A program made the translations under genes and the position numbers. The notes under the pieces are model-generated. The model saw only the letters and a list, made by a program, of their open reading frames with translations, did not search any database and was not told the DNA's origin. DNA of 51,502 nt, taken from positions 1 to 51,502 of IMG/VR virus record IMGVR_UViG_3300046722_000334; one strand, given 5' to 3'. Shown here in pieces: positions 6,073-42,576 of the stretch. Source of the stretch: a virus. Each line of letters begins with the position of its first letter. Position 1 is the first letter of the stretch.

Positions 6073-6537
6073 ATGGGACGACTGCGGCCTTTCGGGCCTA
6101 AAACAAGAGCCTTCCTCGCGGCAATCCGCCAGGTTCCCTCAATCACCCGCGCGGCGAAGGCGGCCGGGATCAGCCGGGAGCTCCATCCCCACCGGCTGAA
6201 ACAGCAGTACTCCGACGATCCGGAGAAAAGAGCCTACGCGCTGCGCTATAAGGCGGCCTTTGAAGAGGCCTGGGAAGTTGGCTGCAACTCGCTCGAATCG
6301 ACGGCCATCGAGCGCTGCATGTTGGGCGTGGACGAGCCGGTGTTTTATCAAGGCGAAGAATGCGGATACGTGACCCGCTACTATCACACCGAATTTCTAC
6401 TGCGCGGGGCCAAGCCCGAAAAGTACCGGGAACGCATCGAGCACAAAGTAGAGCCCGGCGAAGGGATGAAGAAATTTGCAGGGACCATGGAAGAGCTGCT
6501 GGGCGTGTACCGGGAATTGACGCAGGCGAGTGAATGA
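6073..6537 (+). CDS. terS: Terminase small subunit-like HTH protein
   Basis: 154 residues. An N-terminal HTH (FLAAIRQVPSITRAAKAAGI) is followed by a helical region and the segment LRGAKPEKYRERIEHKVEPG, often seen in phage small terminase proteins. Small subunits bind packaging-site DNA and load the large-subunit motor. The stop overlaps the ATG of the large subunit (ATGA), which supports the call. The reading frame opens after a TGA at 6040 and ATG 6073 is its first start codon. The same HTH pattern recurs in the protein at 43902. Confidence 0.8.
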   Translation: MGRLRPFGPKTRAFLAAIRQVPSITRAAKAAGISRELHPHRLKQQYSDDPEKRAYALRYKAAFEEAWEVGCNSLESTAIERCMLGVDEPVFYQGEECGYVTRYYHTEFLLRGAKPEKYRERIEHKVEPGEGMKKFAGTMEELLGVYRELTQASE

Positions 6538-8252
6538 CCGCAACCCTGTCGCCCGCCGAAGCCGCCGCGTTGATCCGGGGATTCTCGGATCACAGCAAAT
6601 TCTGCGAGCACCTGACCATCCGGAACAAGGAAGGCGTTGCGGTTCCCTACCGGACCTCGCCCGCGGGTCTCAAGCTCAACCGCGCGATCCGGAAGCAGGA
6701 ACAGGCCGGCCAGCCGGTGCGCATCGCCATGCTGAAGGCCTCCCAGGTCTTCGCCTCGAGCGCCGTCGCTACTGAGATTTTCCGCCGTGTCCCGTTTTTC
6801 CCGGGCCGCCGCGCCCTGGTGCTCGCGGACACGGACCAGCATGCAGGCCTCGTTTTCGAGTATTACCAGCAGTACATTCGCAGCTATGAAGACAACCCCT
6901 ACGGCTCGGAGTTCGACTCGGCCGTCAAGCTCCCCGAGCTGGTGAAGGACACAGACCGGCATATCCGATGGGGCAACGATTCCTCGATCCTGGTAGGGAC
7001 CGCGAACAATGTGGAAGTGGGCAGAAGCGCCCCGTACAACTGGGTGCAGCTCTCCGAAGCGGCCTTCTACCGGGACATGGGAACGCTCATGACCGGCCTG
7101 ATGCAGCGCGTCCCGAATTCCCCCGATTCGGGCGTCATCGTAGAATCGACCGCCAACGGCATGGGGGGCGACTTTTACGACCTCTGCCAGCGCGCCATGA
7201 ACCCGCGGCAGGCGAGCGGCTGGGCCTTCGTCTTCTTTGCGTATTGGGAGCATCCGGAATACCGGTTAACGCCGGAGCCCGGCTTCAAAATCACGGCGGA
7301 AGAGCTGGGGGAGTTGCAGAAGTACAACCTCCGCCTCGATCAAATCGCCTGGAGACGCCGGCAGATCGAGACGGCCTGTGAAGGCAAGATCGAACGCTTC
7401 CGGCAGGAGTTCCCCGGCAACGCGCAGGAGGCATTCCAGGCGTCCGGTCGGACTATCTTCGACCTGGCGGCCATCGCCCGCATGCCGGTAGTGGACGACG
7501 CCCCCAGGGGCAAACTCGAAGTGGTCGAAGTAGGAATCGAGAAGCGGGTACAGTTCGTTCAAGGACTCGACGGACGCGGAGAAGTTGTCATTTACAAGAT
7601 GCCGCGCAAGGGAGGCCGCTACATAATCGGCGCGGACCATGCCGAGGGGATCGACCCCAACGCGAAGATGGGCTCTTCGGACCCCGATTATTCTTCCGCC
7701 ACTGTGATAGACGCGGATACCGGCGAAGAGGTCGCGAAGCTCAAAGAGCGCTACGAGCCGCATCCGTGGGCCACGCGGCTCTACTGGCTTGGCAAGTTTT
7801 ACAACTGGGCCTTCATTTGCCCGGAGCAGAAGGCGGTAGGGAAAGCGGTAATCGGGCATCTGCTTACCCTTCAGTATCCGCTGGAACTGATCTACTCAAA
7901 GCAGCGCGACCCGAGCGACCGCAGAAGCCCCATGCTCCAGGAACTCGGCTTCGACACCAACACCGTGTTTCGGCCGGTGCTGATCTCCGGACTAGACCAG
8001 GCGCTCCGCGAAAGCTCGATCCGCCTCCACGACCCGGAGACGATTGCGCAGTTGCGGCAATTCGTGCGGAAGCCGAACGGCCGGGAAGAGGGCATCAGCC
8101 ACGATGACGATGTGTTCGGCTTGGCCCTGTGCGTCGAAGGCCTCCCGTACGCGCGCAAGGCATTCCTCTACCGGGAAGCGCAGGACAAGCAGACCAGCAC
8201 CTGGAAACCGCAGCGGTACGGACAGCAAGCGAGAGATGACGATGACGACTGA
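6534..8252 (+). CDS. terL: Terminase large subunit (packaging ATPase-nuclease)
   Basis: 572 residues. The P-loop position is deviant (MLKASQVFASSAVAT, about 66-80), lacking the usual Gly-Lys-Ser/Thr signature. A Walker B-like strand carries E175 (WVQLSEAAFY) and a coupling motif follows (VIVESTANG, 201-209). The C-terminal nuclease half shows acidic residues D368 (YIIGADHAEG), D383/D385 and the D524-D526 cluster (SHDDDVFGLALC), consistent with an RuvC/RNase H-like metal site. It translocates DNA into the prohead and cuts concatemers. Length and neighbours are typical. Confidence 0.92.
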   Translation: MTATLSPAEAAALIRGFSDHSKFCEHLTIRNKEGVAVPYRTSPAGLKLNRAIRKQEQAGQPVRIAMLKASQVFASSAVATEIFRRVPFFPGRRALVLADTDQHAGLVFEYYQQYIRSYEDNPYGSEFDSAVKLPELVKDTDRHIRWGNDSSILVGTANNVEVGRSAPYNWVQLSEAAFYRDMGTLMTGLMQRVPNSPDSGVIVESTANGMGGDFYDLCQRAMNPRQASGWAFVFFAYWEHPEYRLTPEPGFKITAEELGELQKYNLRLDQIAWRRRQIETACEGKIERFRQEFPGNAQEAFQASGRTIFDLAAIARMPVVDDAPRGKLEVVEVGIEKRVQFVQGLDGRGEVVIYKMPRKGGRYIIGADHAEGIDPNAKMGSSDPDYSSATVIDADTGEEVAKLKERYEPHPWATRLYWLGKFYNWAFICPEQKAVGKAVIGHLLTLQYPLELIYSKQRDPSDRRSPMLQELGFDTNTVFRPVLISGLDQALRESSIRLHDPETIAQLRQFVRKPNGREEGISHDDDVFGLALCVEGLPYARKAFLYREAQDKQTSTWKPQRYGQQARDDDDD

Positions 8253-11111: not shown

Positions 11112-11115
11112 ATCT

Positions 11116-13184: not shown

Positions 13185-13819
13185 TGTCGAAATCGAAAAG
13201 CGAGCAGATCCGCGAGAACCAGGAGGCGGCCGGCATTCCCGACTCGCGCACGTTTACGGCGCCGGACGGCGAACTGGAAGGCGGCGTGTCCCGGATCCGC
13301 CAGTGTCACATCAACGGCGTACTCATTGGCGAGATGCCCTTGGGGCCGGAAGTGCTCTCCGCGCTGGACTACTGGGCGACCGATGAGGGTATCGCCGAAC
13401 GCAACGCACGGCCGGAGATGCGCGAACCGAGCGGTATTTCACTGGGAGTCGACGGCTTCGGCAAAGCCTTGCAACAGCGGCGCGATGACGTGAAAGACCG
13501 CGACATCAATCTCTACGAGGCCCGCGACCCCTTCAAAGAAGCGGCCCAATTCGCAGGCCCGAACATGCGGCCCAAGATGCTCTCCGGGGACGCCATCAAA
13601 AACGGGGGCACCGGGGACTGGGACATCGTGAAGTATCCAACAGACCACGCGCGGGCCGGCGAACCGGTGAAAGTGCGCGACATGGTACTGGGCCAGATGC
13701 CCGAAGCCAAAGCGAAGGCGCGTAACGAGCATTACCGCGCCCGCGGCAACAATATGCTGAAGCAGATCAGTGAAAAGTGGAAGGCCGAAGGCGGCAAGAC
13801 CGCCGTAGCCGATCAGTAA
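13184..13819 (+). CDS. Head-module protein of unknown function
   Basis: 211 residues, TAATG overlap with the scaffold-like gene. Hydrophilic, with a middle part LDYWATDEGIAERNARPEMR and the C-terminus KWKAEGGKTAVADQ. The last 24 bases of the gene are repeated exactly about 215 bp downstream. Co-transcription with scaffold and coat suggests a minor head protein. Confidence 0.65.
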   Translation: MSKSKSEQIRENQEAAGIPDSRTFTAPDGELEGGVSRIRQCHINGVLIGEMPLGPEVLSALDYWATDEGIAERNARPEMREPSGISLGVDGFGKALQQRRDDVKDRDINLYEARDPFKEAAQFAGPNMRPKMLSGDAIKNGGTGDWDIVKYPTDHARAGEPVKVRDMVLGQMPEAKAKARNEHYRARGNNMLKQISEKWKAEGGKTAVADQ

Positions 13820-14277
13820 ATCAAGTGTTTGTGATCGGGGCACAAGAAGAGCATTTGGGGCATAAGGAAGTTCCAGCCTTCCCCTAAATCGTCCGCCGGT
13901 AACAGACGGCGGCAACTCTTCACAGCGCAGTAAATCGGCCTCAGATCCTCTAACGTCAGTCTGATCATCCGCACTAGTTCAACGTACCACGCGAAGCAGG
14001 CGCGTCCAGCGGTAAGACCGCCGTAGCCGATCAGTAAGCACCAAACGGGACAGGGGTACGGGCCTTACTCGGCAACCGATATCGGCTAGCCGACCATACC
14101 GTCCTTCGGCTCTCCGCCCCGTCTGGTCTGCGCAGTAAGCGACTTTTATTAGAACACGCGAAGCAGGCGCGTCCAGCAGTACCGTCCCTCTAGGGCACCC
14201 GGACGCGGTTTCCACCTCGACCCAGCCAAGGTCTTCGCTCCTTTGAGGCAATCGCAAATCACAGGAGTGAAATCTCT
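13820..14277. repeat. 458-bp gene-free region with two pairs of direct repeats
   Basis: Two direct repeats are visible. The 24-bp end of the preceding gene (AAGACCGCCGTAGCC... through its TAA) recurs at about 14014-14037. A 23-bp word (CACGCGAAGCAGGCGCGTCC plus three bases) occurs at 13988-14010 and 14155-14177. CCGCCG at 13893-13898 pairs with CGGCGG at 13907-13912, and CCGATATCGG at 14076-14085 is palindromic. No open frame looks real. It separates the early head genes from the coat genes and may carry a coat promoter or RNA structure. Confidence 0.6.
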
Positions 14278-14817
14278 ATGGCAAACGTAAACTCGGTCTT
14301 CGGCTTCCGGCCGACGATGCGAACATTCACCGGAGGCTCGGGCACCGGGATTCCGGCTCACAAAATCGTGGGCGATGGCGTGGCTCTCTACATCGGAGAT
14401 GCTGTCAACCAGGCCAACGGCGCCACCAAATCCACCCGCGCCATCAAGGCCGCAGCCAACGCCGGGACGAGCGTCGTTCTGGGCGTCAACCTGATCTACG
14501 GCGCCGTCTCGACGCTCACCGACCACATCATCGTGCTGGCCGCCAGCGCCATCTTCCTGGCGCAGTTGGACGGTTCGTCCAACAACTACACCAACGCCAA
14601 AGCCAGCTACAACGCGAACCTCAACTTTTCGGCGGGCAGCGCCACGACCAAGATCTCTGGTATGGCTTTGGTCGAATCGACCATCGCCACCACCAACACG
14701 CTCGACGCCAAGATGCGCGGCCTCTACCAGTCGCCCAACAACACGTCCGGTCAGTACGCGGTCGTGTATATGAGCTTCAACAACTTGGTCGATGCGGACC
14801 AGAAGGCGGGCATCTAA
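14278..14817 (+). CDS. Capsid decoration-type head protein
   Basis: 179 residues. Begins MANVNSVFGFRPTMRTFTGG, a start shared with many small phage head proteins, followed by a Gly/Ala/Thr-rich beta domain including DGVALYIGDAVNQANG. AGGAG lies upstream. It precedes the coat gene by zero bases (TAA then ATG). A capsid-surface or cement role is inferred from position and composition. Confidence 0.65.
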   Translation: MANVNSVFGFRPTMRTFTGGSGTGIPAHKIVGDGVALYIGDAVNQANGATKSTRAIKAAANAGTSVVLGVNLIYGAVSTLTDHIIVLAASAIFLAQLDGSSNNYTNAKASYNANLNFSAGSATTKISGMALVESTIATTNTLDAKMRGLYQSPNNTSGQYAVVYMSFNNLVDADQKAGI

Positions 14818-15762
14818 ATGCAAATCAGAGGCCAATTTTCCGATTTCTTCTTTGAAACGATGCTCCCGGCTCTCAATGCCAAGATCTGGGCCAACTTCAA
14901 AGCCAAGCCCCCGATGTATACCAGGGTGCTCAACACCGACACCACCGCGCGCTCCATCGAGCAGTTCTCGCAGATGGTCGGAGTCGGATTGCCTACTGCG
15001 GTAGGCGAAACCGAAGACACCCCCACGGACAACTTCATTCAGGGGTTCAACAAGACGTTCCGCCCCTTGAAATACGGGCTGGGGATCGCCGCCTCGCAAG
15101 AGTTGGTCGAAGACGATAAGGTCGGCATCATCAGCCGCCGCTCAGTCGCTCTCGCCAATTCCATCGCCCAGGCGCGCGAGATTCAAGCAGCCAGCGTTAT
15201 CAACAACGGCTTCTCCTCGACGGATGCCAACGGCAACAGCACGCTTTGCCCGGATGGCAAGGTGCTTTTTGCCTCCGACCATCCTCTGATCAAATCCGGC
15301 GGCACGCAATCGAACCTGCTCTCGAGTGCGGCCGACCTGGACGTCACCTCGCTCGAGCTGGCGCTGACCGACTGGGAACTGATCAAGACGCATGAAGGCT
15401 TCTACCAGATGCTGCCCACACCCCGCGTGCTGGTAGCCTCGCAAAACAGGTGGAACGTGGCGGAAATCCTGAAGTCTCAGATGCGCTCCGACACACCGAA
15501 CCACACTGCCAACGCTTTCCAGTACACCGAAACCGGCGGCACTATCGAATCCATGTGCTGGGCCGGATTCCTCACAGATCCGGATGCCTGGTTCCTGATC
15601 GCTCCTCCCGACCAGACCGAGTTGCTCTGGCTCGACCGCAAAGCTCCCTACACCAAAGCCGATTACATCGAGAAATCGGAAACCGGGATCATTTACATGC
15701 GGTATCGCGCGACCTTCGGCAATCACGGCTGGGCCGGCGTCTACGGCACTCCCGGCGCGTAG
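14818..15762 (+). CDS. Major capsid protein
   Basis: 314 residues, typical for a coat protein. Helical N-terminus, then ARSIEQFSQMVGVG and PLKYGLGIAASQELVEDDKV, followed by the region LFASDHPLIKSGGTQSN and LPTPRVLVASQNRWNVAEIL, which is the pattern of Mu gpT-like and other HK97-fold heads. The C-terminus IIYMRYRATFGNHGWAGVYG is also usual. A strong terminator follows directly, consistent with high expression. Confidence 0.85.
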   Translation: MQIRGQFSDFFFETMLPALNAKIWANFKAKPPMYTRVLNTDTTARSIEQFSQMVGVGLPTAVGETEDTPTDNFIQGFNKTFRPLKYGLGIAASQELVEDDKVGIISRRSVALANSIAQAREIQAASVINNGFSSTDANGNSTLCPDGKVLFASDHPLIKSGGTQSNLLSSAADLDVTSLELALTDWELIKTHEGFYQMLPTPRVLVASQNRWNVAEILKSQMRSDTPNHTANAFQYTETGGTIESMCWAGFLTDPDAWFLIAPPDQTELLWLDRKAPYTKADYIEKSETGIIYMRYRATFGNHGWAGVYGTPGA

Positions 15763-15783
15763 TTCGTTTCCTCTCCTTGCTCC

Positions 15784-15816
15784 GCGGGGAGTTCTCAACC
15801 GCTCCCCGCTTTTTTT
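15784..15816 (+). terminator. Rho-independent terminator after the capsid gene
   Basis: Perfect 8-bp stem GCGGGGAG (15784-15791) with CTCCCCGC (15802-15809), a ten-base loop, and seven T residues (15810-15816). Confidence 0.9.
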
Positions 15817-15852
15817 CAACCCACTCACCAACACAGAACAGACGGGACCACC

Positions 15853-16668
15853 ATGTCATTTCCATCGGATACGCAGCGGGGCATTCCCGCTTGGCTTGCC
15901 AAATTCGGGCCGACGCTCTTCAGGGCCCGCTATCGCGCTTCGGTAGGCGACTCCAACGCCGCCACCAAAGTGCCCGTGATCATTCAAGGGGCGCCCTCGC
16001 AGACCGCCAACCTGTTCGAGTGCTACGACTCGGCCAAGAACCTGCTGGCCGCGATCGACGCCTCGGGCGTGGTGACTTCCGCCGGCGGCGTGACCAATCC
16101 CTCCGCCAATAGCCTTGCCATCTCGACGCTAGTGCGGGGTACCAACGGGCAACTGCTGATCGGGCAGACCGGGGCAGCGACGGCGTACGAGACCGTGACC
16201 GGGGACGTCGGCATCACCGCGGGCGGGGTTACCGCCCTCGCCTCGAGCGTATTGAAAGTGGTCAGCGTCAGTTTGACCAACGCCAATATCAAGAACCTGC
16301 GAGCCACGCCGTTTCAACTCGTTGCGGCACCCGCCGCCAACTTCATGCTGGAGTTCATTTCCGCCAAATTGCTGCTGGTGGCGGGAATCAATGTGCTCAC
16401 CGAAGCGGGCTACAACCTGGCGGTGAAGTTCACCGACGGCTCGGGCGCGCAAGTGTCCCAGACCATCGAATGCACGGGGTTCATCGATCAGGCGACCAAC
16501 ACGATTACTAACGGGCTCCCCAAGATCGACGCCATCGTGCCGGCCGCCTCCGCGTCCGCCGCGGCGCTGGTGCTCCATAACCTGGGCGGCGCTGAATTCG
16601 GCGGCAATGCGGGCGTCGACGCCACCATGAAAATCGACATCGTGTACCGCGTACACGCGACGAACTAA
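15853..16668 (+). CDS. Structural protein with beta-rich C-terminal domain
   Basis: 271 residues. The first half is Ala/Gly/Thr-rich with VTGDVGITAGGVTALASSVL, a repeat-like pattern common in phage fibre and head fibre proteins. The second half, from about 145, is a compact beta domain (FMLEFISAKLLLVAGINVLT). It sits directly after the capsid terminator. Possible head fibre or tail component; no named family. Confidence 0.6.
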   Translation: MSFPSDTQRGIPAWLAKFGPTLFRARYRASVGDSNAATKVPVIIQGAPSQTANLFECYDSAKNLLAAIDASGVVTSAGGVTNPSANSLAISTLVRGTNGQLLIGQTGAATAYETVTGDVGITAGGVTALASSVLKVVSVSLTNANIKNLRATPFQLVAAPAANFMLEFISAKLLLVAGINVLTEAGYNLAVKFTDGSGAQVSQTIECTGFIDQATNTITNGLPKIDAIVPAASASAAALVLHNLGGAEFGGNAGVDATMKIDIVYRVHATN

Positions 16669-16680
16669 AAGGACCAACCT

Positions 16681-17064
16681 ATGTCAACCGTCCAATCCGA
16701 CGCCACCGTTACGATTGCCGCCGGGGCTACCGGCCTATCCACCGCCGTCAACGTGGGCAACAAAGTTCCGGTAGCCGTGTTTGTTCCGGCGGCCTGGGTC
16801 TCGGCTGCGCTGAGTTTCCAGGTCTCCTACGACCAGGGCACCACCTGGGCCGACTATTTCAATTCCGCCGGCGTCGAGGTCTCCGTGTCGGCCGCCATCA
16901 TGGGCGCGGCGGCGACGGCGGCGCGGCCGGTCACGCTCGACCCCTCGGACTTCGCCGGCGTCATGTTCCTCAAACTGCGCTCGGGCGTCTCTGGCGCCGC
17001 GGTGGATCAGACCGCCAGCCGGAAGGTGCAGATCTACACCCGCAAATTCTACCCGGTAGGCTAA
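16681..17064 (+). CDS. Small beta-rich structural protein
   Basis: 127 residues, nearly all beta-strand and small residues (VTIAAGATGLSTAVNVGNKV), with a central LSFQVSYDQGTTWADYFNS that resembles carbohydrate-binding-like or Ig-like strands. Ends in QIYTRKFYPVG. Likely a virion component by location. Confidence 0.6.
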   Translation: MSTVQSDATVTIAAGATGLSTAVNVGNKVPVAVFVPAAWVSAALSFQVSYDQGTTWADYFNSAGVEVSVSAAIMGAAATAARPVTLDPSDFAGVMFLKLRSGVSGAAVDQTASRKVQIYTRKFYPVG

Positions 17065-17066
17065 CC

Positions 17067-17960
17067 ATGCGAAAACTCTGGCTCCTTCTTTTCATAGCCC
17101 TGCCTCTTTCCGCTCAGTTTGGCAACAATGCCAAGAAGTGGATGGGGCTATCGTTGTGCCCCAGCATGTCGACCGTCTCAACCAACCTCTGGATACCGCA
17201 GTGGGACTCCACGAACTTGTGCTGGAAAGCTGCGGCCAACGGGGGCGCTTCCGGGAGCGGCCTATCCTCCTTCACGTCGCCCAACTCCTCGGTGACCATC
17301 GGCGGCACTCTGCTTGATCCCACGGCAGATATCAATACGACCTATACCAACGGCCTCTATCCGCAATTGGGCGCGGGCAATACCTACACGGCGGGATCTA
17401 AGCAGAGCTTCAATCCGAGCGCGACAACGGCCGGTGCGCGCATCGTTCCAGGGGCTTGGTTTAGTGCCCCCATTGCCGGGGATCAAGGAGTCAATGCGGC
17501 GGGAGATTTCGGAACCAACGACGGCGTAAACAACCGATTTTATTTTTACATTAACGCCGCCGATCCTAACGCTCCCGGACTCCCGACCGGCACAGATCTT
17601 TTGCTTCGACCTTGCGAAATTGTCATCGGCAGTTTGGGCACGGGCTCTACCGCATTGGCGACAGACAACACGCCGGTCAGTCTATGCGACAGCCCCTTCA
17701 CCGGATCTCTGAAGATCACCGAGGTCAAGTGCTATGCAGACTCCTCCACAGGAGCGCCAGCGGTGGAACCGAAGATCACAGGCGGCGCGGCGACCTCGAT
17801 TCTGACTGGCCCAATCGCCTGCGGAAACGGCGCGTTTGGGAGCGCGGGCACGCTCAACGGATCTCCGGTGCAAACCACCGATCAGAGTATTGACGGCGTG
17901 ATCACCACGGCGGGCGGAACGGCGAAGTACATCATCATCCGAATCAAGAGGTCCCTGTGA
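17067..17960 (+). CDS. Predicted secreted beta-rich protein, tail region
   Basis: 297 residues beginning with a Sec-type signal peptide: MRKLWLLLFIALPLSAQF, with likely cleavage at S-A before Q. The mature part is Gly/Ser/Thr/Asn-rich with C-terminal beta strands and cysteine pairs (LRPCEIVIGS, CGNGAFG) that could form disulphides outside the cytoplasm. The stop overlaps the next start (GTGA). Position says tail protein, the leader says exported protein; see findings. Confidence 0.7.
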   Translation: MRKLWLLLFIALPLSAQFGNNAKKWMGLSLCPSMSTVSTNLWIPQWDSTNLCWKAAANGGASGSGLSSFTSPNSSVTIGGTLLDPTADINTTYTNGLYPQLGAGNTYTAGSKQSFNPSATTAGARIVPGAWFSAPIAGDQGVNAAGDFGTNDGVNNRFYFYINAADPNAPGLPTGTDLLLRPCEIVIGSLGTGSTALATDNTPVSLCDSPFTGSLKITEVKCYADSSTGAPAVEPKITGGAATSILTGPIACGNGAFGSAGTLNGSPVQTTDQSIDGVITTAGGTAKYIIIRIKRSL

Positions 17961-18652
17961 GACTGGCCATTTTACTTTGCATCGCTTCGCGTCTTTTCGG
18001 AGCGCAGGGATTTGTGAACGCGGCAATTCATGAGGCCTTAGACGACGTTAGTGTGAGTATCTCGTTGACCTCGCCAAACGCCGTTTACTGCCTAACGCAG
18101 GCGAGCAACACCTCCGTGATTACTTCCGTGGGTGCCGATGATGGAGCGGGACATACATTCAGCCTTACCGGAGCAACGCAATTCTCCGATATCGCCAACA
18201 TGCAGTGGTTTTATGCCATTCGCGTGGTAACCACAGCCACGTATACGATCACGTCATCTTATACGGCTGGCGGCACTTTTCGGGCCATCACTTGCTACGA
18301 GGTGTCTGGTGTTCCTGCGACAGGGGTGGTGGACGTCAATAACGCCGCTGGAACTGCCGGGTCGGGAACATCGTGTACGACCGCTTCCTTCAGCACGGCT
18401 CAGGCGAGCGAGGTGGTGGTGGTTGGCGTGGCCCCGGCCGCAGCATCCCAAACCTTTAGCGCGGGAGCTGGGTATACGATGCCGGCTATTTCTATGACGT
18501 TTTCGGGAAGCGAATACCAGGCATTCTCATCGCCACAGGCCGGGGTTGCCGCGACGGACAACTACAGTTCCAACGTTGCCAGTATGTGCCTGGCGTTCAG
18601 CATGAAGGACAATGCCGCGACTGCCTCCATACCGATGAGGAGCATTCAATGA
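17957..18652 (+). CDS. Predicted secreted beta-sandwich protein
   Basis: 231 residues from GTG 17957. Signal peptide MRLAILLCIASRLFGAQ. The mature domain alternates strands and Ser/Thr/Gly turns, with a core (YTITSSYTAGGTFRAITCYE, then a G-S-G-T-S turn and ASEVVVVGVAPAA) that resembles a segment of the next protein at about residues 780-905. Likely an Ig-like or lectin-like adhesion domain. Overlaps the following gene by ATGA. Confidence 0.65.
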   Translation: MRLAILLCIASRLFGAQGFVNAAIHEALDDVSVSISLTSPNAVYCLTQASNTSVITSVGADDGAGHTFSLTGATQFSDIANMQWFYAIRVVTTATYTITSSYTAGGTFRAITCYEVSGVPATGVVDVNNAAGTAGSGTSCTTASFSTAQASEVVVVGVAPAAASQTFSAGAGYTMPAISMTFSGSEYQAFSSPQAGVAATDNYSSNVASMCLAFSMKDNAATASIPMRSIQ

Positions 18653-21600
18653 AACTTGCCCTCTGCCTCTTGCTTTCTGGCATCGCATGGGGCCAGTTGA
18701 GCCCCTACACGGACCAGACCGTCCTACTTCTGGACGTGGGCGCGAAGGACGTAGCCGTAACCAACCTCGACGCCTTGGGCGGCGTGCAGCATATTCCTCT
18801 GCCGGTGGACGGGACGCACCGGGCTAGAGTGTGGCTGTCGCGGTACTCTCCCTGTCCAGGATCTACGGTTCCGGGATTTACAGACACGCATTGCACTGCA
18901 CCGGGGGGTTCCGCGACTGCCTGCACTGGTTCTTGCGCGATCTCTCTACATCAGGAGTATGGGCCGTACTCCCGCCGCTTCTCGATTTGTGATTTGGCTG
19001 GGACTACCTGTGGAACCCCAAGCTCCTTCGAGCGCATGCCAGCGGTCAATCCGGCTCCCACCAATTCTCCCTATACCGTCCCGCTCTACATTTATGGGAC
19101 CGGGGGAAACCAGAAAAGTTTCAACGTCCCAATTGCTGGCGGGCAGACCGTGAGCGGTTTACGGCTATGGACATGGTTGTTCCAGACGCCGCGCCGAAAA
19201 TTGAGCGTTGGCTTCAACTCGCAGCCGATGAAGCTGATCGACACGGTAAACGTAATTAAGGTGACCACTAGCGGGACCGTCTGCACGATGGTAACCGACC
19301 GTCCGCACGGCTTGAGCAATGGGCAGTTGGCACAACTTAACTTCTTCAATACCACATGGTTCAGCGATGGCGGCCAAGCACAACTAAATGGAAACTTTAA
19401 CGTGACCGTTGTGGACGATTCCACGTTTACCGTGCCCTGCACTCTGAGCGCAGACGCTAGCGGAACGCATTGGACCACAGGCTCCAATTGGAATGCCGAC
19501 CTGCCCCCAGCCCAGGTGGGCTACGCAACAGGGAAGACGGTGAGCGGAACGGTGTTCTATTCAAGTGAGGAGAAATTCTTTGGCGGGATGGATTCCAACG
19601 GACAGGCTTTTATGGCCACCGTGCCTATCGGCGCATCTGAATTGACGGCAGGGGCAACAAACGTCGTGAAGTTCCAATACAACGGAGCACCCACAGGAGC
19701 CAGCCTGAACCAATGGGTGCTTGACTGGAACGTCGTAGAGCCCGACAAAGAATTGGACCAGATCGTGGTGACCGGCCTCAATGCCGTGGCGCGGACCACC
19801 ACGAACTTCACCTGCGTAGTGGGCGATACGTACATTATCCAGAATGCTCCTGGCCCACTATGGCGCTTCAATCTGGAACGGGTCGTTACGGCTTGTCCGG
19901 ACGGAACTGGCGCGAATGCCAGCACGCATTTTACGTTCTTGTGGGGACCAGACACGGACGGATTTCAAGAATATGAAACTCTGACGCAGACGCCGAGCAC
20001 TACGTCCACCGATCCGTTCTATACTGCACCTGGAACCTACGTGGTGCGCACGGCTCGCGACACAACGATCACACCGAACCAGCATATGTACGCAGCGCGA
20101 GCGATTATCGCCAAGAGCAATTTCGTAGCGTATAAACCATCGGTGGAAAATCGCGTCTCCGCTGGAAGCGTGAGCAACGGGCACACGCTATTCGATACGG
20201 TTCCGATAAAGACCAGGAATCCCTATTTCAACCACCAGGAACTTACGCCATGCGCTGGTTGTCACATGGATGGAGGCTTCTCGTTTAAGTACGGCCAGGC
20301 TCCTTCTGACGTGATCCACTTCGGCGCGGTGCAGGACGGGTTCTCAGATTCTGACGCAGAGGATATTCTCGCCTACATTCAAAGCAATACCCTCACCCCG
20401 CCCGTGCGAAGCCGGTGGTGGAATCCTCTGCTACAGGGGGGTAAGACCTGCGGCAGTATTTCGTCGGCCGATCGTTTGGCAGGAAATGGCATCCGCTGGA
20501 AGTTGGTGTACGATCAAGACCTACCAGAGTACCTGATCCCTGGAGGCTCGTTTGCCAAGTGGGCGGCGAACCAAAACTTGGATTTTTTCTGCATCCCGTT
20601 GCCGATCACCAACCCGCATTGGATTCGCTGGTTCCCAGCAGAACACCCCTTGGATTTCTTTGCGTCGCTCGGCCTGGACTTCACCGCACAGGCGGCCTGG
20701 ACAGATTACGTGGCATACAAGGCGGCGCTTAAATTTGGCGCAGCGAACAATTTCACGCAACTCGAAAAAGGAACCCTGGGGGGGTCCGGTGTGGCTTACC
20801 GGATCGGTGCAGCGGCAGGAACCGACGATGCAAAATTGACGGCCCCAAACACGCAGGCTTGGGACTTGAACGGTTTGGCATTCAAGACTACAGGCGTGGG
20901 AAGCTGCACTTCCACTAATGTTGAGGTGGGCGCTGGAGGCGCATCGTCCAACGCCGTCTCGATCACGGAAACTCTGCACCATAGCCTCTTCGTCCTCACC
21001 ACGTCAACATCAGGGGCCACCGCTACAATAGGAGACACAAAAGGCGAGACCTTCGTTGCGACGCTAGGATCTCCGTACAGCGGGAGCGCGGGTCTTCCGA
21101 CGCTCTATTATTCCTGGTACGTCAAGGACACCGGGGCGGGAGCCAATACGATCACGGCAGCGTACTCAGGGAGCAATCAGTACCCGGCGTTATCGGTCGT
21201 AGATTGCTCCAACGTGGACCACGTGAACACCTTCGACGCGCAGCACTCGGCCAGCGGATCGGGTACGGCAGGCTACGTTAGTAGCGGAAACTTCACAACG
21301 TCGGCGGCAGGCGACATCATCATCGGCTGGGGAAACTACGCGGCGGCTGGAGGATTTCCGGCCCCCTCGATCTTGACCGCCTACGAAGGCAACGCAAACT
21401 ATCTCGGCAATCTCGTTTCTCCGTCCCCGGATATTAGTGCGGCGAAGGCAGCCACTGGCATTTTCGATTATAAGAACACTCCGAGCCGTGGAATGGCCTG
21501 CTATCAAGCCCCGACCTTTGTGTGCCAGGCTAGCCACTACCTCAGCATTTGGTGGTCTAACCGAACTCTCGAACTGATCCAGGCCATCGCGGGACTGGGA

Positions 21601-22476
21601 GGCAAGCACGATACGATCATTGCCGACTACATGTTATCCAGCCAGGGATTGACGCTCGATTCACATTCCGGGGCTTACACTCCAAACGGCTATTTCACCA
21701 ATGCCCTATTCGACACTGGCCCGCATAAAGCAAATATCGGAGACAACTGCTTCCATCTCCAATTTCAAGGGCTCTTCACCTGCGCGAATACGATCCTGGA
21801 TACGGCGATGTGGTATATGCTGCAGTTCCAGCAGGGCAACCGGAACCACTTCGCCAGTGGAGACAATCCGATCGACGTTCCCTATAACTACCTTTTCACT
21901 GGAGGCCTGTCGGGCTCTCGCTCTATGTTCTGGATGAGTTGGATGGGCAATTCGCAGAACGCTCAAATGACGTGGGGTTGGCCGAACATGAACAACATGG
22001 ACATGACCTATTTAGCCGGCAAGTTCATGATCGGCGGGCTAAACACCCAAGGTCACGATCAATTCATCACCGAAGCGGAAAAGGCCACGGTGATGAACGA
22101 GTGGGTGCAGCAATTCTTAGAGCTTAAAGCGCGGTTCACGGTCGCCGCCGATTGGCAGACTAAGTTCCCCTGTACGTCACCATTGGCTGGCGGCGCAGCG
22201 TTGGCTTGGGGCACCAGTTCTAGTCAAATCTGCCAGGATTGGGCCATGACGCTGCCGATCCTCAACCACTACAACAGCGGAAATTTCGCTGGGGGACCCA
22301 ACCCAGCCGATATCGACACCATCCAGGACTGGCTGCAAACGCTCTACCCGACTCCAGGCGGCGTGGCCTACAACTGGACCACGGAGCGCAACGAGCCGTG
22401 CTCGTTCAACTGGGGGTCGATTGGGGTTGGTGGCAATAACAATCCGCCTGTGCTGTTGTCTTGCACCTTCCAGTAA
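18649..22476 (+). CDS. Large predicted secreted protein with cytochrome c-like CxxCH motif
   Basis: 1,275 residues from ATG 18649, coupled to the previous stop. Signal peptide MKLALCLLLSGIAWGQ. Residues about 20-510 are beta-rich. At C535-x-x-C538-H539 (LTPCAGCHMDGGF) lies a canonical haem c attachment motif, followed about 30 residues later by a helix of the cytochrome c C-terminal type (DSDAEDILAYIQSN). H or M in the intervening loop could be the sixth ligand. Residues about 780-905 resemble the beta domain of the preceding protein. The C-terminal 350 residues are Trp/Met/Asn-rich (FWMSWMGNSQNAQMTWGWPN). An exported, possibly haem-binding protein inside a phage tail module is unusual; role unknown. 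Confidence 0.7.
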   Translation: MKLALCLLLSGIAWGQLSPYTDQTVLLLDVGAKDVAVTNLDALGGVQHIPLPVDGTHRARVWLSRYSPCPGSTVPGFTDTHCTAPGGSATACTGSCAISLHQEYGPYSRRFSICDLAGTTCGTPSSFERMPAVNPAPTNSPYTVPLYIYGTGGNQKSFNVPIAGGQTVSGLRLWTWLFQTPRRKLSVGFNSQPMKLIDTVNVIKVTTSGTVCTMVTDRPHGLSNGQLAQLNFFNTTWFSDGGQAQLNGNFNVTVVDDSTFTVPCTLSADASGTHWTTGSNWNADLPPAQVGYATGKTVSGTVFYSSEEKFFGGMDSNGQAFMATVPIGASELTAGATNVVKFQYNGAPTGASLNQWVLDWNVVEPDKELDQIVVTGLNAVARTTTNFTCVVGDTYIIQNAPGPLWRFNLERVVTACPDGTGANASTHFTFLWGPDTDGFQEYETLTQTPSTTSTDPFYTAPGTYVVRTARDTTITPNQHMYAARAIIAKSNFVAYKPSVENRVSAGSVSNGHTLFDTVPIKTRNPYFNHQELTPCAGCHMDGGFSFKYGQAPSDVIHFGAVQDGFSDSDAEDILAYIQSNTLTPPVRSRWWNPLLQGGKTCGSISSADRLAGNGIRWKLVYDQDLPEYLIPGGSFAKWAANQNLDFFCIPLPITNPHWIRWFPAEHPLDFFASLGLDFTAQAAWTDYVAYKAALKFGAANNFTQLEKGTLGGSGVAYRIGAAAGTDDAKLTAPNTQAWDLNGLAFKTTGVGSCTSTNVEVGAGGASSNAVSITETLHHSLFVLTTSTSGATATIGDTKGETFVATLGSPYSGSAGLPTLYYSWYVKDTGAGANTITAAYSGSNQYPALSVVDCSNVDHVNTFDAQHSASGSGTAGYVSSGNFTTSAAGDIIIGWGNYAAAGGFPAPSILTAYEGNANYLGNLVSPSPDISAAKAATGIFDYKNTPSRGMACYQAPTFVCQASHYLSIWWSNRTLELIQAIAGLGGKHDTIIADYMLSSQGLTLDSHSGAYTPNGYFTNALFDTGPHKANIGDNCFHLQFQGLFTCANTILDTAMWYMLQFQQGNRNHFASGDNPIDVPYNYLFTGGLSGSRSMFWMSWMGNSQNAQMTWGWPNMNNMDMTYLAGKFMIGGLNTQGHDQFITEAEKATVMNEWVQQFLELKARFTVAADWQTKFPCTSPLAGGAALAWGTSSSQICQDWAMTLPILNHYNSGNFAGGPNPADIDTIQDWLQTLYPTPGGVAYNWTTERNEPCSFNWGSIGVGGNNNPPVLLSCTFQ

Positions 22477-22691: not shown

Positions 22692-23552
22692 ATGAGCACT
22701 TACGGCGATACCCGATTACGCTGCGTCAAAGAAGTTCCGGGGATAGACTTTGCCCTATGGGATGGATACCTCTTAGACCGCTATACAGCGATCCTGGACC
22801 GCTTGCAGTGGGCCCGCCTGGATGAGCAATCCATTCTCACCACCGTGGCCCCCTACGCGACGGGAACCGTGGCGCTCGTCCAAGGAGCCAATAGCATAGC
22901 CTTGACCGGAGGGACGTTCACGACGGGCATGACGGGCCGTGGTTTCCGGGTGCCGGGCCGCGACGAATGGTACAGCTTCACGTACGTGGGCGCCGCTTCA
23001 GGCCTCCTCGATCGCCTCTACGAAGGCCCGACCAATGCCCTCTCCCAGTACAAAATCTATCAGGCCATCTACGCCCTGAGCGCAACTACAAAGCTGGTCA
23101 AGAGCCTCACGCTGCCCGGCTGGGGGCCGCTCACCCGCACCAGCCCCGGCGAGTTGAACGCCAGCGCCCCCAGCCGCACCACCTTCGCGGCACCCTCGAG
23201 CTTCGCGCCTTACATGGACGACTCGGAAGACCCCCCGCATCTGCAGATCGAACTCTACCCAGTTCCCGATGCGGTGTACAGTATCATGCTGGCCTCTACC
23301 GCGGAGGCTCGGGGAATCTCCGGCACCGGCACTACCCTGCTGCCGTGGATGCGGCCGAGTTGCCTGTTCGCCGGCGCGGTAGCCGATGCTTTCCTCCATG
23401 CGAAAGACATCAACTCGGCCATGGCCTGGGAAGTGAAATACAAGGAACGCCTAGCGGATATGGTGCGCACCGAGAACGCCTCGAGCGGGCCGCTGGTGAT
23501 GACGCTGGACGACTATTACACAAGACATCGGATGCGCCGCTTTCAACGCTAG
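22692..23552 (+). CDS. Adaptor-like tail protein
   Basis: 286 residues. Helical N-terminus with DRYTAILDRLQWARLDEQ, then beta region (TGTVALVQGANSIALTGGTF) typical of podovirus tail or head-tail proteins, and a C-terminus with a helical array (FLHAKDINSAMAWEVKYKER). The general plan, beta module then alpha-helical end, is shared with the proteins at 25550 and 29026. Likely part of the connector or tail hub; identity not certain. Confidence 0.6.
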   Translation: MSTYGDTRLRCVKEVPGIDFALWDGYLLDRYTAILDRLQWARLDEQSILTTVAPYATGTVALVQGANSIALTGGTFTTGMTGRGFRVPGRDEWYSFTYVGAASGLLDRLYEGPTNALSQYKIYQAIYALSATTKLVKSLTLPGWGPLTRTSPGELNASAPSRTTFAAPSSFAPYMDDSEDPPHLQIELYPVPDAVYSIMLASTAEARGISGTGTTLLPWMRPSCLFAGAVADAFLHAKDINSAMAWEVKYKERLADMVRTENASSGPLVMTLDDYYTRHRMRRFQR

Positions 23553-23579
23553 AATCCCCCCTTTCAGGAGACAAACAAA

Positions 23580-24029
23580 ATGGCTGCAGCAGGACCGTGG
23601 GTACTTTACAACGATTTCAAGCTGAACGCCTTCAAGAAGCTGATGGACTTGTCGGCGGACAGCTTCAAGCTGGCCCTGGTCACCTCGGCCTCGACGGCAA
23701 TCAGCGCCACTCTGACGCCGGCTACCTATGCCGGATTCAATAACGAGGTTTCCAATGCCAACGGCTACACGACCGGAGGCGCGGCGGCCGGCTCACCCAC
23801 GCTTACCGGAGGGGGAGCCACGGCCACGATCACCTTCGACCTTGCCGATGTGCCTTGGACAGCCTCGGCCTCCGGAATCACGGCACGCGCCGCGGTCCTC
23901 TACGACGACACGGCGACGTCCAAGAACCTCATTGCGTACTGCCTGCTCGATTCCACCCCGGCCGATGTCGTAGTGGCGGCGGGGAACACTCTCACCGTGC
24001 AGATCACCAACGTATTCACCGACGCATAG
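23580..24029 (+). CDS. Small structural protein
   Basis: 149 residues. Begins MAAAGPWVLYNDFKLNAFKK, then FKLALVTSASTAISA, a pattern found in small phage tail or head structural proteins, with a beta-rich remainder (ATITFDLADVPWTASASGIT) ending in TVQITNVFTDA. AGGAG sits upstream. Virion component by pattern and place. Confidence 0.65.
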   Translation: MAAAGPWVLYNDFKLNAFKKLMDLSADSFKLALVTSASTAISATLTPATYAGFNNEVSNANGYTTGGAAAGSPTLTGGGATATITFDLADVPWTASASGITARAAVLYDDTATSKNLIAYCLLDSTPADVVVAAGNTLTVQITNVFTDA

Positions 24030-24038
24030 GGCTAACCC

Positions 24039-25553
24039 TTGGCGACTACTTTCAACCAGACGCAGTTTCGCGGGCGCAATGACGACGGCACCCAGGTTAC
24101 CGCCACCTGGATTGCGGCTACTAATGCGAACTGGGGCCAAAAGCCGGGGGTCACCTTCCGGCTCCGCTTCACCATCTCCCAGACGAGTACCGCCGGGACC
24201 TTGGCGGGGCAACTGCAGGTACAGAAGAACGCGCTCGGCTGGGCCTCCGTGACGGGTTCCTCCTCGGTAGCCAAAGCCGTGGCATCCGGAACGGTTACTG
24301 ACGGCACGGCCACCACGCAGTTAATCAGCACAGGAACGTTCGTCGCCGGATCAACCGATACCGCGGATGGGCTGTGCGCCACCACCGGCTCTATCGCCAG
24401 CGGCTCTTTTACCGAGTTGGAATTCTGCCTTCAGATCAACACGGCGGATGTAACCGCGGCTGATACGGTTACGTTCAGGGTCGTACGGTCCACAGCTACG
24501 ATCTTTATCGGCACGTACCTGAGCCCTGTCGTCAATCTGAAGATCACGAAATCTCCGGCCGCTGTCGCCGCCAGTTTCACCGCAGCCACCCCAGCTCTGA
24601 AACTGACCGTCAAGCCCGCGACCGTTGCCGAAGTCTTCACGGCGGCCACGCCCACGGTTAAGAACGGACTGACCAAGACCCCGGCAACGGTCGCGGCCAG
24701 TTTTAGCGCCGCCACGCCAACTCTCAAGCTGACGGTAAAGCCTGCCACGGTTGCCGCCACCTTCGCAGGCGCTACGCCCACGGTCAAAAACGGGCCGGTC
24801 AAGGCACCGTCGACGGTTGCCGCGAGCTTCAGCGCCGCCACGCCTGCATTAAAGCTCACTGTTAAGCCGGCGACGGTTGCGGCCACGTTCACCCCGGCCA
24901 CCCCGATCGTCAAGAGGGTAGCCAAGCCCGCCACGGTTGCAGCCACATTTGCCGCGGCCACCCCGGCTCTGAAACTGACCGTCAAACCCGCGACGGTCGC
25001 CGCTACATTTGCCGCCGCCACCCCCATCGTGAAACGGGTTGCCAAACCCGCGACGGTCGCCGCTACGTTCACTGGGGCGGCAGTGAAATGGAAACTTACC
25101 GTCAATCCCGCGACCGTGGCGGAAACTTTCACCAGCGCCGCAACAGCGTGGAAACTGACGGTCAAGCCTTCTACGGTTGCGGCCACGTTCACGCCCGCGA
25201 GTCCGGCGGTGGCAGTCGGAACTCCGTCGATCGCCAAGACTCCGGCCACGGTAGCGGCCTACTTTTCGGCCGCGACTCCCGCGCTCCAGTTCACGTTACG
25301 GCCGCCCACAGGCACGGCCCTCTATGCAATGGGGAATCCGGCTCTCGGCCTGTGGGTAACTCCAGCCACGGCGCCAGCGCTCCTCTTCACGGGCGGCGAG
25401 GTAGTGTTCGTCTCCGCCCTCGGCCCTCAGCCCCAGGCGGGCCTCTTCGGTAGTGCGATGGCGCCTGTTGGCGGGAGCATGGACTTTCAGGCGCCCCCTG
25501 TTGGCGGCTCTTGCGCGTATGGCACCGCCCCTGTCGGCGGGAGCGTGCTTTGA
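24039..25553 (+). CDS. Tandem-repeat tail protein with 20-residue units
   Basis: 504 residues from TTG 24039. Residues 1-165 form a beta domain. From about 170 to 455 there are about 13 imperfect units of 20-21 residues with consensus KPATVAATFxxATPxxKLTV; alternating units end in K-L-T-V, V-K-N-G or V-K-R-V-A. The end carries PVGGS three times (about 476-503). Long regular repeats like this occur in phage fibres or tail-tip proteins, where unit number can vary by recombination. The complement strand is also open across the repeats, judged a by-product of codon periodicity. Confidence 0.75.
   Translation: MATTFNQTQFRGRNDDGTQVTATWIAATNANWGQKPGVTFRLRFTISQTSTAGTLAGQLQVQKNALGWASVTGSSSVAKAVASGTVTDGTATTQLISTGTFVAGSTDTADGLCATTGSIASGSFTELEFCLQINTADVTAADTVTFRVVRSTATIFIGTYLSPVVNLKITKSPAAVAASFTAATPALKLTVKPATVAEVFTAATPTVKNGLTKTPATVAASFSAATPTLKLTVKPATVAATFAGATPTVKNGPVKAPSTVAASFSAATPALKLTVKPATVAATFTPATPIVKRVAKPATVAATFAAATPALKLTVKPATVAATFAAATPIVKRVAKPATVAATFTGAAVKWKLTVNPATVAETFTSAATAWKLTVKPSTVAATFTPASPAVAVGTPSIAKTPATVAAYFSAATPALQFTLRPPTGTALYAMGNPALGLWVTPATAPALLFTGGEVVFVSALGPQPQAGLFGSAMAPVGGSMDFQAPPVGGSCAYGTAPVGGSVL
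24548..25400 (+). repeat. Coding minisatellite, about 13 units of 60-63 bp
   Basis: Tandem units encode KPATVAATFxxATPxxKLTV-type repeats. Neighbouring units are more alike at DNA level near 24890-25075, suggesting recent duplication there. Confidence 0.75.
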
Positions 25554-26230
25554 CTGTCAGCGAGTTAACGGCGCGCGTCGAGCAGAGAATCGATGACGAT
25601 ACGACCGCACCGGCCACGGTGCAGCCGGGCGAGATACTGGCAGCGCTCAATGAAGGACAGGACCTGGCCTCATGGCTGACACTCTGCCTGGAAAGCGTCG
25701 TTTCCTGGACCCTGCCGTCTCTCGCAACGTTTCTTTCGATCCGCGCCACCTTCCCGGATTTCCTGGTTCCGTTGCGTCTCGAGATCGCCGGCGCGCGGAT
25801 CCGGCCGGCCACGGTCGCGGACCTCGACGCCGAAAACAGCAACTGGCAGGCGACGGTTGGCACGCCCAAGCGGTATTTCACCTTCGGCTGGAACTTCGCC
25901 GGGGTGACGCCGCAACCGTTGAACGACACCGTGGCTACGTTGACCTACGCGCGGGCACCAGTGCAGCTCGTTGGAGATGCTTTCCCTGAATTGCCGGTCC
26001 AGTACGACGAATCCCTAATCTGCTACGCGATCTACAAGGTCCGTCTCAAAGAGGGAGCACAAGGGTTAGAGAGGGGCTTGAAATACCTCAACAAGGCCCT
26101 GGACGACTGGACCGAACTAGGAGATTTCATCCGCAATCGTTCGCGGGCTGCACGATATGACGTCTTACCGTGGGAGCTGAGGATGTTCGACCGTTCCCGT
26201 TTAGCTGCACCGAAGCCGCCTAGAAAGTAA
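25550..26230 (+). CDS. Adaptor-like tail or connector protein
   Basis: 226 residues from TTG 25550, overlapping the previous stop. An N-terminal helix (ELTARVEQRIDDD) is followed by beta strands with PLNDTVATLTYARAPVQL and a long helical C-terminus (YAIYKVRLKEGAQGLERGLK). This plan is common in phage adaptor proteins that join head and tail. Similar in style to the proteins at 22692 and 29026. Confidence 0.6.
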   Translation: MTVSELTARVEQRIDDDTTAPATVQPGEILAALNEGQDLASWLTLCLESVVSWTLPSLATFLSIRATFPDFLVPLRLEIAGARIRPATVADLDAENSNWQATVGTPKRYFTFGWNFAGVTPQPLNDTVATLTYARAPVQLVGDAFPELPVQYDESLICYAIYKVRLKEGAQGLERGLKYLNKALDDWTELGDFIRNRSRAARYDVLPWELRMFDRSRLAAPKPPRK

Positions 26231-26254
26231 TCCCCCTCGAGGTTTTCCATTCCT

Positions 26255-29029
26255 ATGCTGCGCTCTATTCGCTTGATCCTCGTCTGCGCGTTGGGGCTTT
26301 CCGCCCAGACCGCCCGCTATCCCAACGCCATCGCCACAAATACCGACCTCACCGACCTGGCCGACCGCGCGCAGACCACTTTGAACGGCTCGGCCATGAA
26401 CGCCTCGCAGACGTTCGCCACCGTGGTATCGAGTTCCAAGTTCACAACGAACATGATCATCACGATCGATAACGAACAGATGAAAATCTGCTCGATCTCG
26501 CCTGCGAATCAGTTGAATTTCGGCAACGCCTCTTGTCCCAACGTGGACGGCCGCGGCTGGGCGGGAACCACGGCCACCTCGCACCAGACGGCGGTGCTCG
26601 TCTCGGATTACTTCACGGCCTATCAGTTCAAAGCCCTGCGGGAAGAGATCAAAGCCATCGAGTCGACGCTGGGCACGAATCTTTCGAACGCCGGCGTCAG
26701 TTACTTCGCGGATGCCAAAAACATGGCGTTTACCCCGCTCACCCCGGGCGGCGCGCTGGCGAACGGCAACAATACCGTGACCCTTTCTCTAGTCCCCCCA
26801 GGAGTGAACGGTTCCGATGCCAACCACTGGCTGTGGGTCTCGGGCGGCACAGGCACGGCGGAACCGTGCAAGGTCAACGGCGGAACCGGCGTAGCCTCCC
26901 AAGTGAATGGGCAGATCATCCTGGCTTGCACCGGCTCACACACCAACGCCTGGACCGTCCAGAGCGCCACTGGAGGCATCCAGGAAGCCATGCAGGCGGC
27001 TTCGACCGCGGGCGGCGGCACGGCCCTAGCGCGCGTGGGCACGTATCCCCTTTACGCGGCGCCGCGCGTTCTATCGAATGTGACGCTGTGGCTCATGCCT
27101 GGCGCCACGATGCAGGTTGTCGCCAACCAGTGGCCCGCGACTCCCACTGCGCCTTGGACCGGCAGTTCGGGCGGCGCGAACACGCCAATCGGGCTCCTCA
27201 GCGGCTATCTGGCGGTGAACTGCACCATCCGCGGCGGCATCTTCGACGCCAACGGGGCGAATCAAGGGAACGCGACGTATGGGCAGGACATCGGATTGGA
27301 TGCTGCGACCAATTGTCTGGTGGAGGGAACCGAGGTCATCAATTCATATCACGATGGCGCCATGTTCGCCGCGCTGGATAGCGTTTCCCCGTTGGGCTCC
27401 GGGAACCGGTTTCTCAATGTGACGGGTCATGGCCCCTCGCGCACGGTCGGAAACTGCCCGGGCGGCGTCTTCTCGCAATCTCCCAATACCACAGTAGACA
27501 ATCCGGTCCTAGATGGCATGTGCGACGAGGGGATCGTCGCCAATGGACCGCAAGCTGTCGGTTTCTCGCTGCACGGCGGCAAAATTACCGGCAACGTCAA
27601 TGCCGTGGTGAACGGGGCCCACGCCGAGAATAGCTCGAACACCAGCTTCGAAGGCTTGCACTGCTACGGCAGGGTGGGGAATTGTGTCTTGTTCGCGCCG
27701 AGCGATTCGGGTGGCTCGAACATGCACACTTTGAGCGCCGTGGACATCAAGGCCTTCACCGATGGCACGTATTCACCCACCACGCTCGTAGGCATCACCG
27801 ACGATATGAACGGCCATATTGTCTCCGACTGGAGCGTGATCGGCGGCTCGATCGACCGCGGCTCCTCGCGCGGCGTTCTGGTCTATCCCAATGCTTCCGG
27901 CGGCGTCACCAACGGCCTGGTTAGCGGCGTAGTGATCCGCAATACTGCGTCCAACGGCCTCGAGATCCGGGCTCCCGCGACCAAAATCAACGTGGCCAAC
28001 AACACGGTTACGGGCAGCATTTCCGGCTCGGATATCCTGATGTGCGCCCCGGCGACCAACTGCCCGGGCTCCGTGGTTTCGTTCAACCACACCACCGATG
28101 CCTTCGATAACCTGCTGGTTACCGCACAGCAACCGCTCTTTCAAGCCACGCACGCCACCGCCCCGGCGTTCGCATGGGTCACGACGGCAGCGCCGGCCAA
28201 TCAGAAGAACTGGTATTTCGCCATCAATGGAGGCGATCCTACGCAACTCACGTTGCTCTCCGCCAACGATGCGGGCAGTTCCACGAGCCCGTTTCTGACG
28301 TTCAACCGCTCGGGAGCTTCCTACACAGCTTCCTCGATCAACGTCTTTACGCCGCTTTCCGTTTCCACCCTGGCAAATTCCGCCGATCAAGGCCTCTATA
28401 GCTTCGCGCCCAATGGGTCATTCATCAAGAAACTGCCTTCTGCGAGCGCGGGTCTCTATAATCCGCTCGTTCAAAATCTGGACCAGCTCGTTACGGATGC
28501 CGCCGGGTCCGGGGCGATCAACACCGGGGGATTCTGCTTCCCTTGCCCGTATTCCACGTCGTCATTCGGGGCACGCTGGGACAACGTAGCCAAGAGCCTG
28601 AATGTCTACGCGGTTACTCACACGTTCAATACGACCGCCAATTCCTCCGACGATAACCTGTCCGCGAAAGCCCCCAACGGCGCGTATATCCGGTTCTTGC
28701 CCCACACCGCGGGAGCCCTGCAAGCGCTTTCCTCTGCGGGAGTCGCAGGCGCCATCGATACCGGAGTGCTCAGCCTGAGCCCCTTCTCTACGACGGCGTT
28801 CACGCTAAACATGGACAATGTGACGAAGCGAATCAACGCCACGGGGCTGATGCGCATGACGCCCGTTTTATTTGGCGCCTTGCCCGCTTGCGCTGCGGGT
28901 TCCGAGGGCGCGTACGCCTCCGTCACGGATGCGAGCGCAGCCACTTGGGGAACTACCATCACCGGATCGAGCACCAACCATGTGCTCGTCTACTGCGATG
29001 GCACGAATTGGAGCGTGGCAGGGAAATGA
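26255..29029 (+). CDS. Beta-helix tailspike-like protein with signal peptide
   Basis: 924 residues. Signal peptide MLRSIRLILVCALGLSAQ. Residues about 65-140 have the pattern MIITIDNEQMKIC...RGWAGTTATSH, seen in phage tail proteins near receptor-binding domains. Residues about 330-620 read as a right-handed parallel beta-helix (VNCTIRGGIFDANGANQGN; SVIGGSIDRGSSRGVLVYP), the fold of tailspikes that bind or cut surface polysaccharide. The C-terminus is Gly/Ser-rich beta. No catalytic acid pair can be assigned. Likely host-recognition spike; the leader peptide is odd. Confidence 0.7.
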   Translation: MLRSIRLILVCALGLSAQTARYPNAIATNTDLTDLADRAQTTLNGSAMNASQTFATVVSSSKFTTNMIITIDNEQMKICSISPANQLNFGNASCPNVDGRGWAGTTATSHQTAVLVSDYFTAYQFKALREEIKAIESTLGTNLSNAGVSYFADAKNMAFTPLTPGGALANGNNTVTLSLVPPGVNGSDANHWLWVSGGTGTAEPCKVNGGTGVASQVNGQIILACTGSHTNAWTVQSATGGIQEAMQAASTAGGGTALARVGTYPLYAAPRVLSNVTLWLMPGATMQVVANQWPATPTAPWTGSSGGANTPIGLLSGYLAVNCTIRGGIFDANGANQGNATYGQDIGLDAATNCLVEGTEVINSYHDGAMFAALDSVSPLGSGNRFLNVTGHGPSRTVGNCPGGVFSQSPNTTVDNPVLDGMCDEGIVANGPQAVGFSLHGGKITGNVNAVVNGAHAENSSNTSFEGLHCYGRVGNCVLFAPSDSGGSNMHTLSAVDIKAFTDGTYSPTTLVGITDDMNGHIVSDWSVIGGSIDRGSSRGVLVYPNASGGVTNGLVSGVVIRNTASNGLEIRAPATKINVANNTVTGSISGSDILMCAPATNCPGSVVSFNHTTDAFDNLLVTAQQPLFQATHATAPAFAWVTTAAPANQKNWYFAINGGDPTQLTLLSANDAGSSTSPFLTFNRSGASYTASSINVFTPLSVSTLANSADQGLYSFAPNGSFIKKLPSASAGLYNPLVQNLDQLVTDAAGSGAINTGGFCFPCPYSTSSFGARWDNVAKSLNVYAVTHTFNTTANSSDDNLSAKAPNGAYIRFLPHTAGALQALSSAGVAGAIDTGVLSLSPFSTTAFTLNMDNVTKRINATGLMRMTPVLFGALPACAAGSEGAYASVTDASAATWGTTITGSSTNHVLVYCDGTNWSVAGK

Positions 29030-42535: not shown

Positions 42536-42576
42536 GTGATTCTCCTTTGGAATCAGCGTATCATCTCATCAGCCAT

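Follow-up and report, generated by a model that had tools for sequence, protein, structure and literature searches.

The open reading frame at 18649-22476 of the window, the whole 51,502-nucleotide stretch analyzed here and the whole of its viral record, appears, with moderate confidence, to encode a c-type cytochrome that is exported and acts outside the cytoplasm. This reading is favored by homology, conservation of the haem motif, signal peptides, the location of the gene in phages and its recurrent capture, as well as by the conservation and shift of a second histidine and by beta-domains resembling carbohydrate-binding modules (CBM-like) in 29 of 62 family members. It is weakened by the lack of a structural match for the whole model, by a score for the window domain that falls under the Pfam cut-off, and by cellular gene neighbors that are uninformative.

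The gene and its exported cassette

The source of the window is a phage of soil bacteria, with terminase and head genes (Table 1) and a tail protein, a structural protein and a tail spike that span 22692-29029. Three genes (17067-17960, 17957-18652 and 18649-22476) are joined by end-to-start overlaps, and all three products carry a signal peptide; signal peptides in the window proteins were read from the sequence. The third gene, on the forward strand, has a 1,275-residue product with the N-terminus MKLALCLLLSGIAWGQ. Its start at 18649 is supported by the GAGGAG Shine-Dalgarno sequence directly 5' of the ATG and by the overlap of this ATG with the preceding stop codon. The export signal is a trait of the family described below, and the product contains 25 cysteines.

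Two other IMG/VR contigs carry identical DNA (100% over window 8649-22151 and 8649-22291), and the frame is therefore not an assembly error. An earlier note on this DNA had judged an artefact less likely, which these contigs and the genuine phage genes bear out, and had described a signal peptide, the CAGCH motif and a later helix in the product, all of which we confirmed, with the motif codons lying inside the interval it gave. Its phrase "tail module" stands only in part: the coat and tail neighbors are real, but the gene is better described as part of an exported cassette located between the coat and the tail genes, and membership in the virion is unsupported.

Outside the haem domain, the inserted beta-domain is related to the product of the gene immediately upstream (E 9e-6 in a single comparison). 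The N-terminal region is linked to the phage relatives L018 and L019 by a profile built from the three phage regions, which retrieves only those three; the link is weak because single-sequence searches fail to connect them. In the wider family, PF14683 (CBM-like, PL4 domain III) is matched with a best E of 1.8e-6, and the beta-domains suggest a site of action bound to polysaccharide.

Elsewhere in the window, a serine recombinase of the Resolvase type (42547-43173; PF00239, E 3.8e-34) could indicate a temperate phage. The 1,634-residue product of 37324-42228 has no Pfam or PHROG match, and no oxidative polysaccharide enzyme was recognized within the window. Positions 1-51 and 51452-51502 share a common 51-base end, mostly an AGG repeat, so the genome may be circular, or the record may end at a repeat-induced break.

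Table 1. Features of the window discussed in the text, in order of position.
Feature	Coordinates	Strand	Basis
Terminase large subunit	6534..8252	+	phrog_2, E 1.4e-25
Major head protein	14818..15762	+	phrog_371, E 1.1e-12
Exported 297-aa protein (MRKLWLLLFIALPLSAQ), first gene of the cassette	17067..17960	+	N-terminus; no family match
Exported 231-aa protein (VRLAILLCIASRLFGAQ), overlapping both neighboring genes	17957..18652	+	N-terminus; homology to the inserted beta-domain
Exported c-type-cytochrome-like protein, 1,275 aa	18649..22476	+	Open frame, signal peptide, GAGGAG, relatives
Signal peptide MKLALCLLLSGIAWG, likely cleaved before Q16	18649..18693	+	Read from sequence
N-terminal region	18691..19098	+	Aligns only with the same region of phage L018 and L019; absent from cellular loci; weak link
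Cytochrome-c-like domain, residues ~485-592	20101..20424	+	Alignment with 62 relatives, c-type profile matches, pLDDT 67-96 per ten-residue block
Haem-attachment motif C535-A-G-C538-H539 (CAGCH, residues 535-539)	20251..20265	+	Invariant in 62-63 aligned sequences
H558, candidate second haem ligand	20320..20322	+	His displaced from the usual family site (D563); same in L060
C-terminal cytochrome helix DSDAEDILAYIQS, residues 567-579	20347..20385	+	Model helix; weak Pfam Cytochrom_C match here
Family extension, R589-x-W591-N592-P593..Q596-x-G598 and W658..W661-x-P663..H666..D669	20413..20655	+	Invariant or nearly so in alignments A9/A10
Inserted beta-domain, residues ~715-930	20791..21438	+	Homologous to the 17957-18652 product and to parts of long Acidobacteriota proteins
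Tail-spike-like 924-aa protein with N-terminal signal peptide	26255..29029	+	PHROG tail spike, E 6.3e-07

The haem motif and its bacterial family

CAGCH is the only CxxCH in the 1,275-residue protein, where about 0.01 would be expected from composition. The motif is not there by chance, since residues ~485-710 belong to an uncharacterized exported CxxCH family, with homologs in Acidobacteriota, Myxococcota, Burkholderiales, Bacteroidota and Verrucomicrobiota. A tblastn search of plasmids found one relative, a Caballeronia lipoprotein whose CMDCH aligns with CAGCH. The search of phage and plasmid collections with P0001 returned this relative only, and the first genome scan with P0001 returned none. 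Starting from the Caballeronia relative, the wider family was gathered by scanning bacterial genomes and viral contigs, with 80 bacterial loci picked by the patterns RxWNPxxQ and WxxWxP and without the use of CxxCH. Every complete member among those examined has CxxCH, though most were found through other motifs. Across 62 aligned sequences, C, C and H are invariant together with 13 other positions (one Gly, the R-W-N-P-Q-G block, two Gly, W, W, D and a further W), although the window protein has only about 20% identity with the other sequences in the alignment (about 20-30% in comparison with the family); alignments A9 and A10 were made without one row from the plasmid collection.

When the domains were trimmed to ~100 residues, Pfam Cytochrom_C matched 43 of 63 members at E <= 1 (best 2.5e-4), with the window domain alone reaching 15.1 bits, below the 21.3 cut-off. 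A profile search of the PDB with the trimmed domain gave 38 matches, all except about 3 of them named c-type cytochromes or cytochrome subunits (best E 7.7e-4). By score, then, the isolated domain weakly resembles cytochrome c. The untrimmed alignment of the whole family had no match in the PDB, and the whole 1,275-residue protein had none in Pfam, NCBIfam, PHROG or PDB. In a model covering residues 131-1275, overall quality is poor (mean pLDDT 60) but the core is good, with helices at about 508-517, 541-548, 553-562 and 567-579, one before CxxCH and one last; Foldseek with the whole model found no significant match in PDB or BFVD. The earlier note had allowed that the haem residues might be unconserved in phage homologs, or that the fold might have no haem pocket; instead, C535, C538 and H539 are invariant in 62-63 relatives, phage included, and the trimmed domain scores as a cytochrome c.

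The top BLASTP partner of the window protein is L024 (98.6 bits, E 5.5e-22, over the cytochrome and extension region), and its best-scoring relatives are Terriglobia/Bryobacterales (L024, L023, L033, L027, L028 and L035). No match above about 33% identity emerged from 399 genomes searched in the class to which L023 belongs, and the branch of the window protein in the tree, at 9.2 changes per column, is too long for firm placement. The earlier proposal of an exported haem protein acquired from the host agrees with this homology: relatives occur in both phages and bacteria, the best cellular ones are Acidobacteriota, and the cellular relatives share the signal peptide, CxxCH and terminal helix.

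The family represented by L023-L102 is a wide, unnamed bacterial group whose exported proteins have a single CxxCH and in some cases also Ig, CBM-like or dockerin domains, and no Pfam entry covers the whole of its haem region. Among 142 neighbor proteins at ~40 cellular loci, none is conserved that names a function. Exopolysaccharide clusters occur near L023 and L028, but the idea of a link to them was dropped after Pfam analysis of these neighbors showed no common context.

A second haem ligand can be proposed from the same alignments. In 61 of 63 sequences, the last helix is preceded at a short distance by a histidine (HGLT/HGL motif), which is absent from the window protein, which has D563 at this position, and from L060 (Bryobacterales), which has Ser. 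Both of these instead have a histidine five residues earlier, at the H558 column, where only three sequences in all have one; L024 reads SIHTRSMFHGL and has both. This pattern fits a second ligand that moved from the HGL position to the H558 column, and since the shift in L060 and the window protein may be shared by descent, we count it as one event. We infer that the HGL or H558 histidines take part in haem binding. H666 was set aside as a second ligand; L019 has Tyr there. The L060 gene (1413-3611) lies on a contig of only 3.9 kb and may be of prophage origin.

Phage relatives and competing explanations

The family is found in at least six other phage lineages (L009/L011 as one lineage, L012, L018, L019, L108 and L110), with a partial copy in L013, and every phage relative with a readable start has a signal peptide. 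Phage markers include a tape measure in L009 and L011, a head protein in L010 (of the lineage of L011), a tail fibre adjoining L018, and terminases in the L019, L108 and L110 records; no marker was recovered for L012 or L013. In the L010/L011 lineage the L011 gene is likewise situated between genes for coat and tape-measure proteins. Branches to the phage rows are long in the tree, which places L012 with Verrucomicrobiota, L110 with Rhodothermota and L018 with Acidobacteriota. The six phage rows call for six label changes, of which starred (well-supported) branches force at least four. From this tree, the phage copies would mostly be separate captures from bacteria.

The position of the gene could also be explained by a virion adhesin, a tail or surface component whose beta-domains bind host polysaccharide and whose haem domain is structural or simply carried along. 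This reading fits the position of the gene, which is found between coat and tail genes in the window and between coat and tape-measure genes in L010/L011. It also fits the tail-fibre or spike-like genes that adjoin the gene in L018, L019, L009 and L011 and the inserted domain in common with the upstream cassette gene. However, the Sec signal peptide and 25 cysteines indicate an extracytoplasmic site, where particles are not assembled, and C, C and H have been retained despite strong divergence. We consider an adhesin unlikely.

Signal peptides are also seen on fibre- or spike-like proteins in or near the window cassette (17067-17960 and 26255-29029), L018 (6614-8617) and L019 (6208-8535), and on further ones near the cytochrome gene in L009 (278-3484) and L011 (2521-5772). 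Export of fibre-like proteins conflicts with the assembly of particles in the cytoplasm.

Less probable still is lysogenic conversion or superinfection exclusion, in which the exported protein of a lysogen changes the host surface. Export to the surface and the serine recombinase are compatible with it, but the gene sits in overlapping frames among late structural genes and does not form a separately expressed unit. A passenger host gene with no phage function and a dead haem site, which might account for the very long branch and the loss of the usual second-ligand histidine, is very improbable, since CxxCH, WNP..Q.G and W..W.P..H..D are intact across a frame of 1,275 codons, an alternative histidine is present at 558, and at least seven phage lineages carry the family.

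Proposed role and comparison with known systems

Returning to the exported cytochrome, we propose that the phage acquired the gene from a relative of its host within the Acidobacteriota and expresses it from the late structural block. The host would export the product by Sec, and its cytochrome c maturation system would join haem to C535 and C538, with H539 as the first ligand and H558 here, or the HGL histidine in most relatives, as the second. Two histidine ligands would make the haem suited to electron transfer and not to O2 binding. The protein is thus probably a mono-haem, bis-His cytochrome active at the host surface or matrix, where the beta-domains would probably anchor it to polysaccharide, and the periplasmic chain of the host might exchange electrons through it with a partner on the cell surface or within the matrix. 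A surface or matrix altered in this way might aid release, spread or the exclusion of competitors, although the exact benefit to the phage is a guess that we hold to be rather doubtful. More broadly, we suggest only tentatively that phages of several phyla have repeatedly captured exported, polysaccharide-binding mono-haem cytochromes, some of them deployed as a secreted cassette of the late block for redox activity on the host surface or matrix.

Phage c-type cytochromes have seldom been reported. One case is that of the phage-borne SoxD auxiliary genes, which encode c-type cytochrome motifs (PMC8190135); SoxD is a different family from the one described here, a subunit of a sulfur-oxidation enzyme, and two phage SoxD copies are without one or both motifs (PMC8190135). 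Borg elements encode multihaem cytochromes (PMC12660748). The part of the literature that we covered held no report of an exported cytochrome within a phage structural gene block, and a secreted haem protein among structural genes is unusual. Should the haem prove real, phage redox proteins would be passing through the host machinery for export and haem attachment during infection, which would make an extracellular redox role in phage release or spread testable. The finding also draws attention to a widespread bacterial cytochrome family.

The closest comparison is with that family, which has the motifs CxDCHxxDGRDLKYFNYSN, RPWNPPYQPGPG and LPDWNHWLPxxHP and is exemplified by the Caballeronia plasmid lipoprotein (NZ_CP049317.1, 1700948-1703254). 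The window protein shares its signal peptide, beta-domain, single CxxCH, terminal cytochrome helix, RxWNP and WxxWxP motifs and helical C-terminal part, and differs in its inserted beta-domain, its own N-terminal region and the shifted second histidine. Like the class I c-type cytochromes (PF00034, PF13442), it has CxxCH after the first helix, the usual last helix and profile matches to them, while the distance from CxxCH to the last helix is short, the second ligand is probably His and not Met, and the matches are weak (best 2.5e-4 within the family). In layout, as distinct from homology, the protein may be compared with Cbp2D of Cellvibrio japonicus, a secreted CBM protein with the cytochrome domains X183 and X132, of which X183 reduces LPMOs (PMC8981238). 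Cbp2D is secreted and joins a carbohydrate-binding domain to single-CxxCH cytochrome domains, a layout that the family described here appears to share, the second ligand of X183 in Cbp2D being Met, unlike that proposed for this family (PMC8981238).
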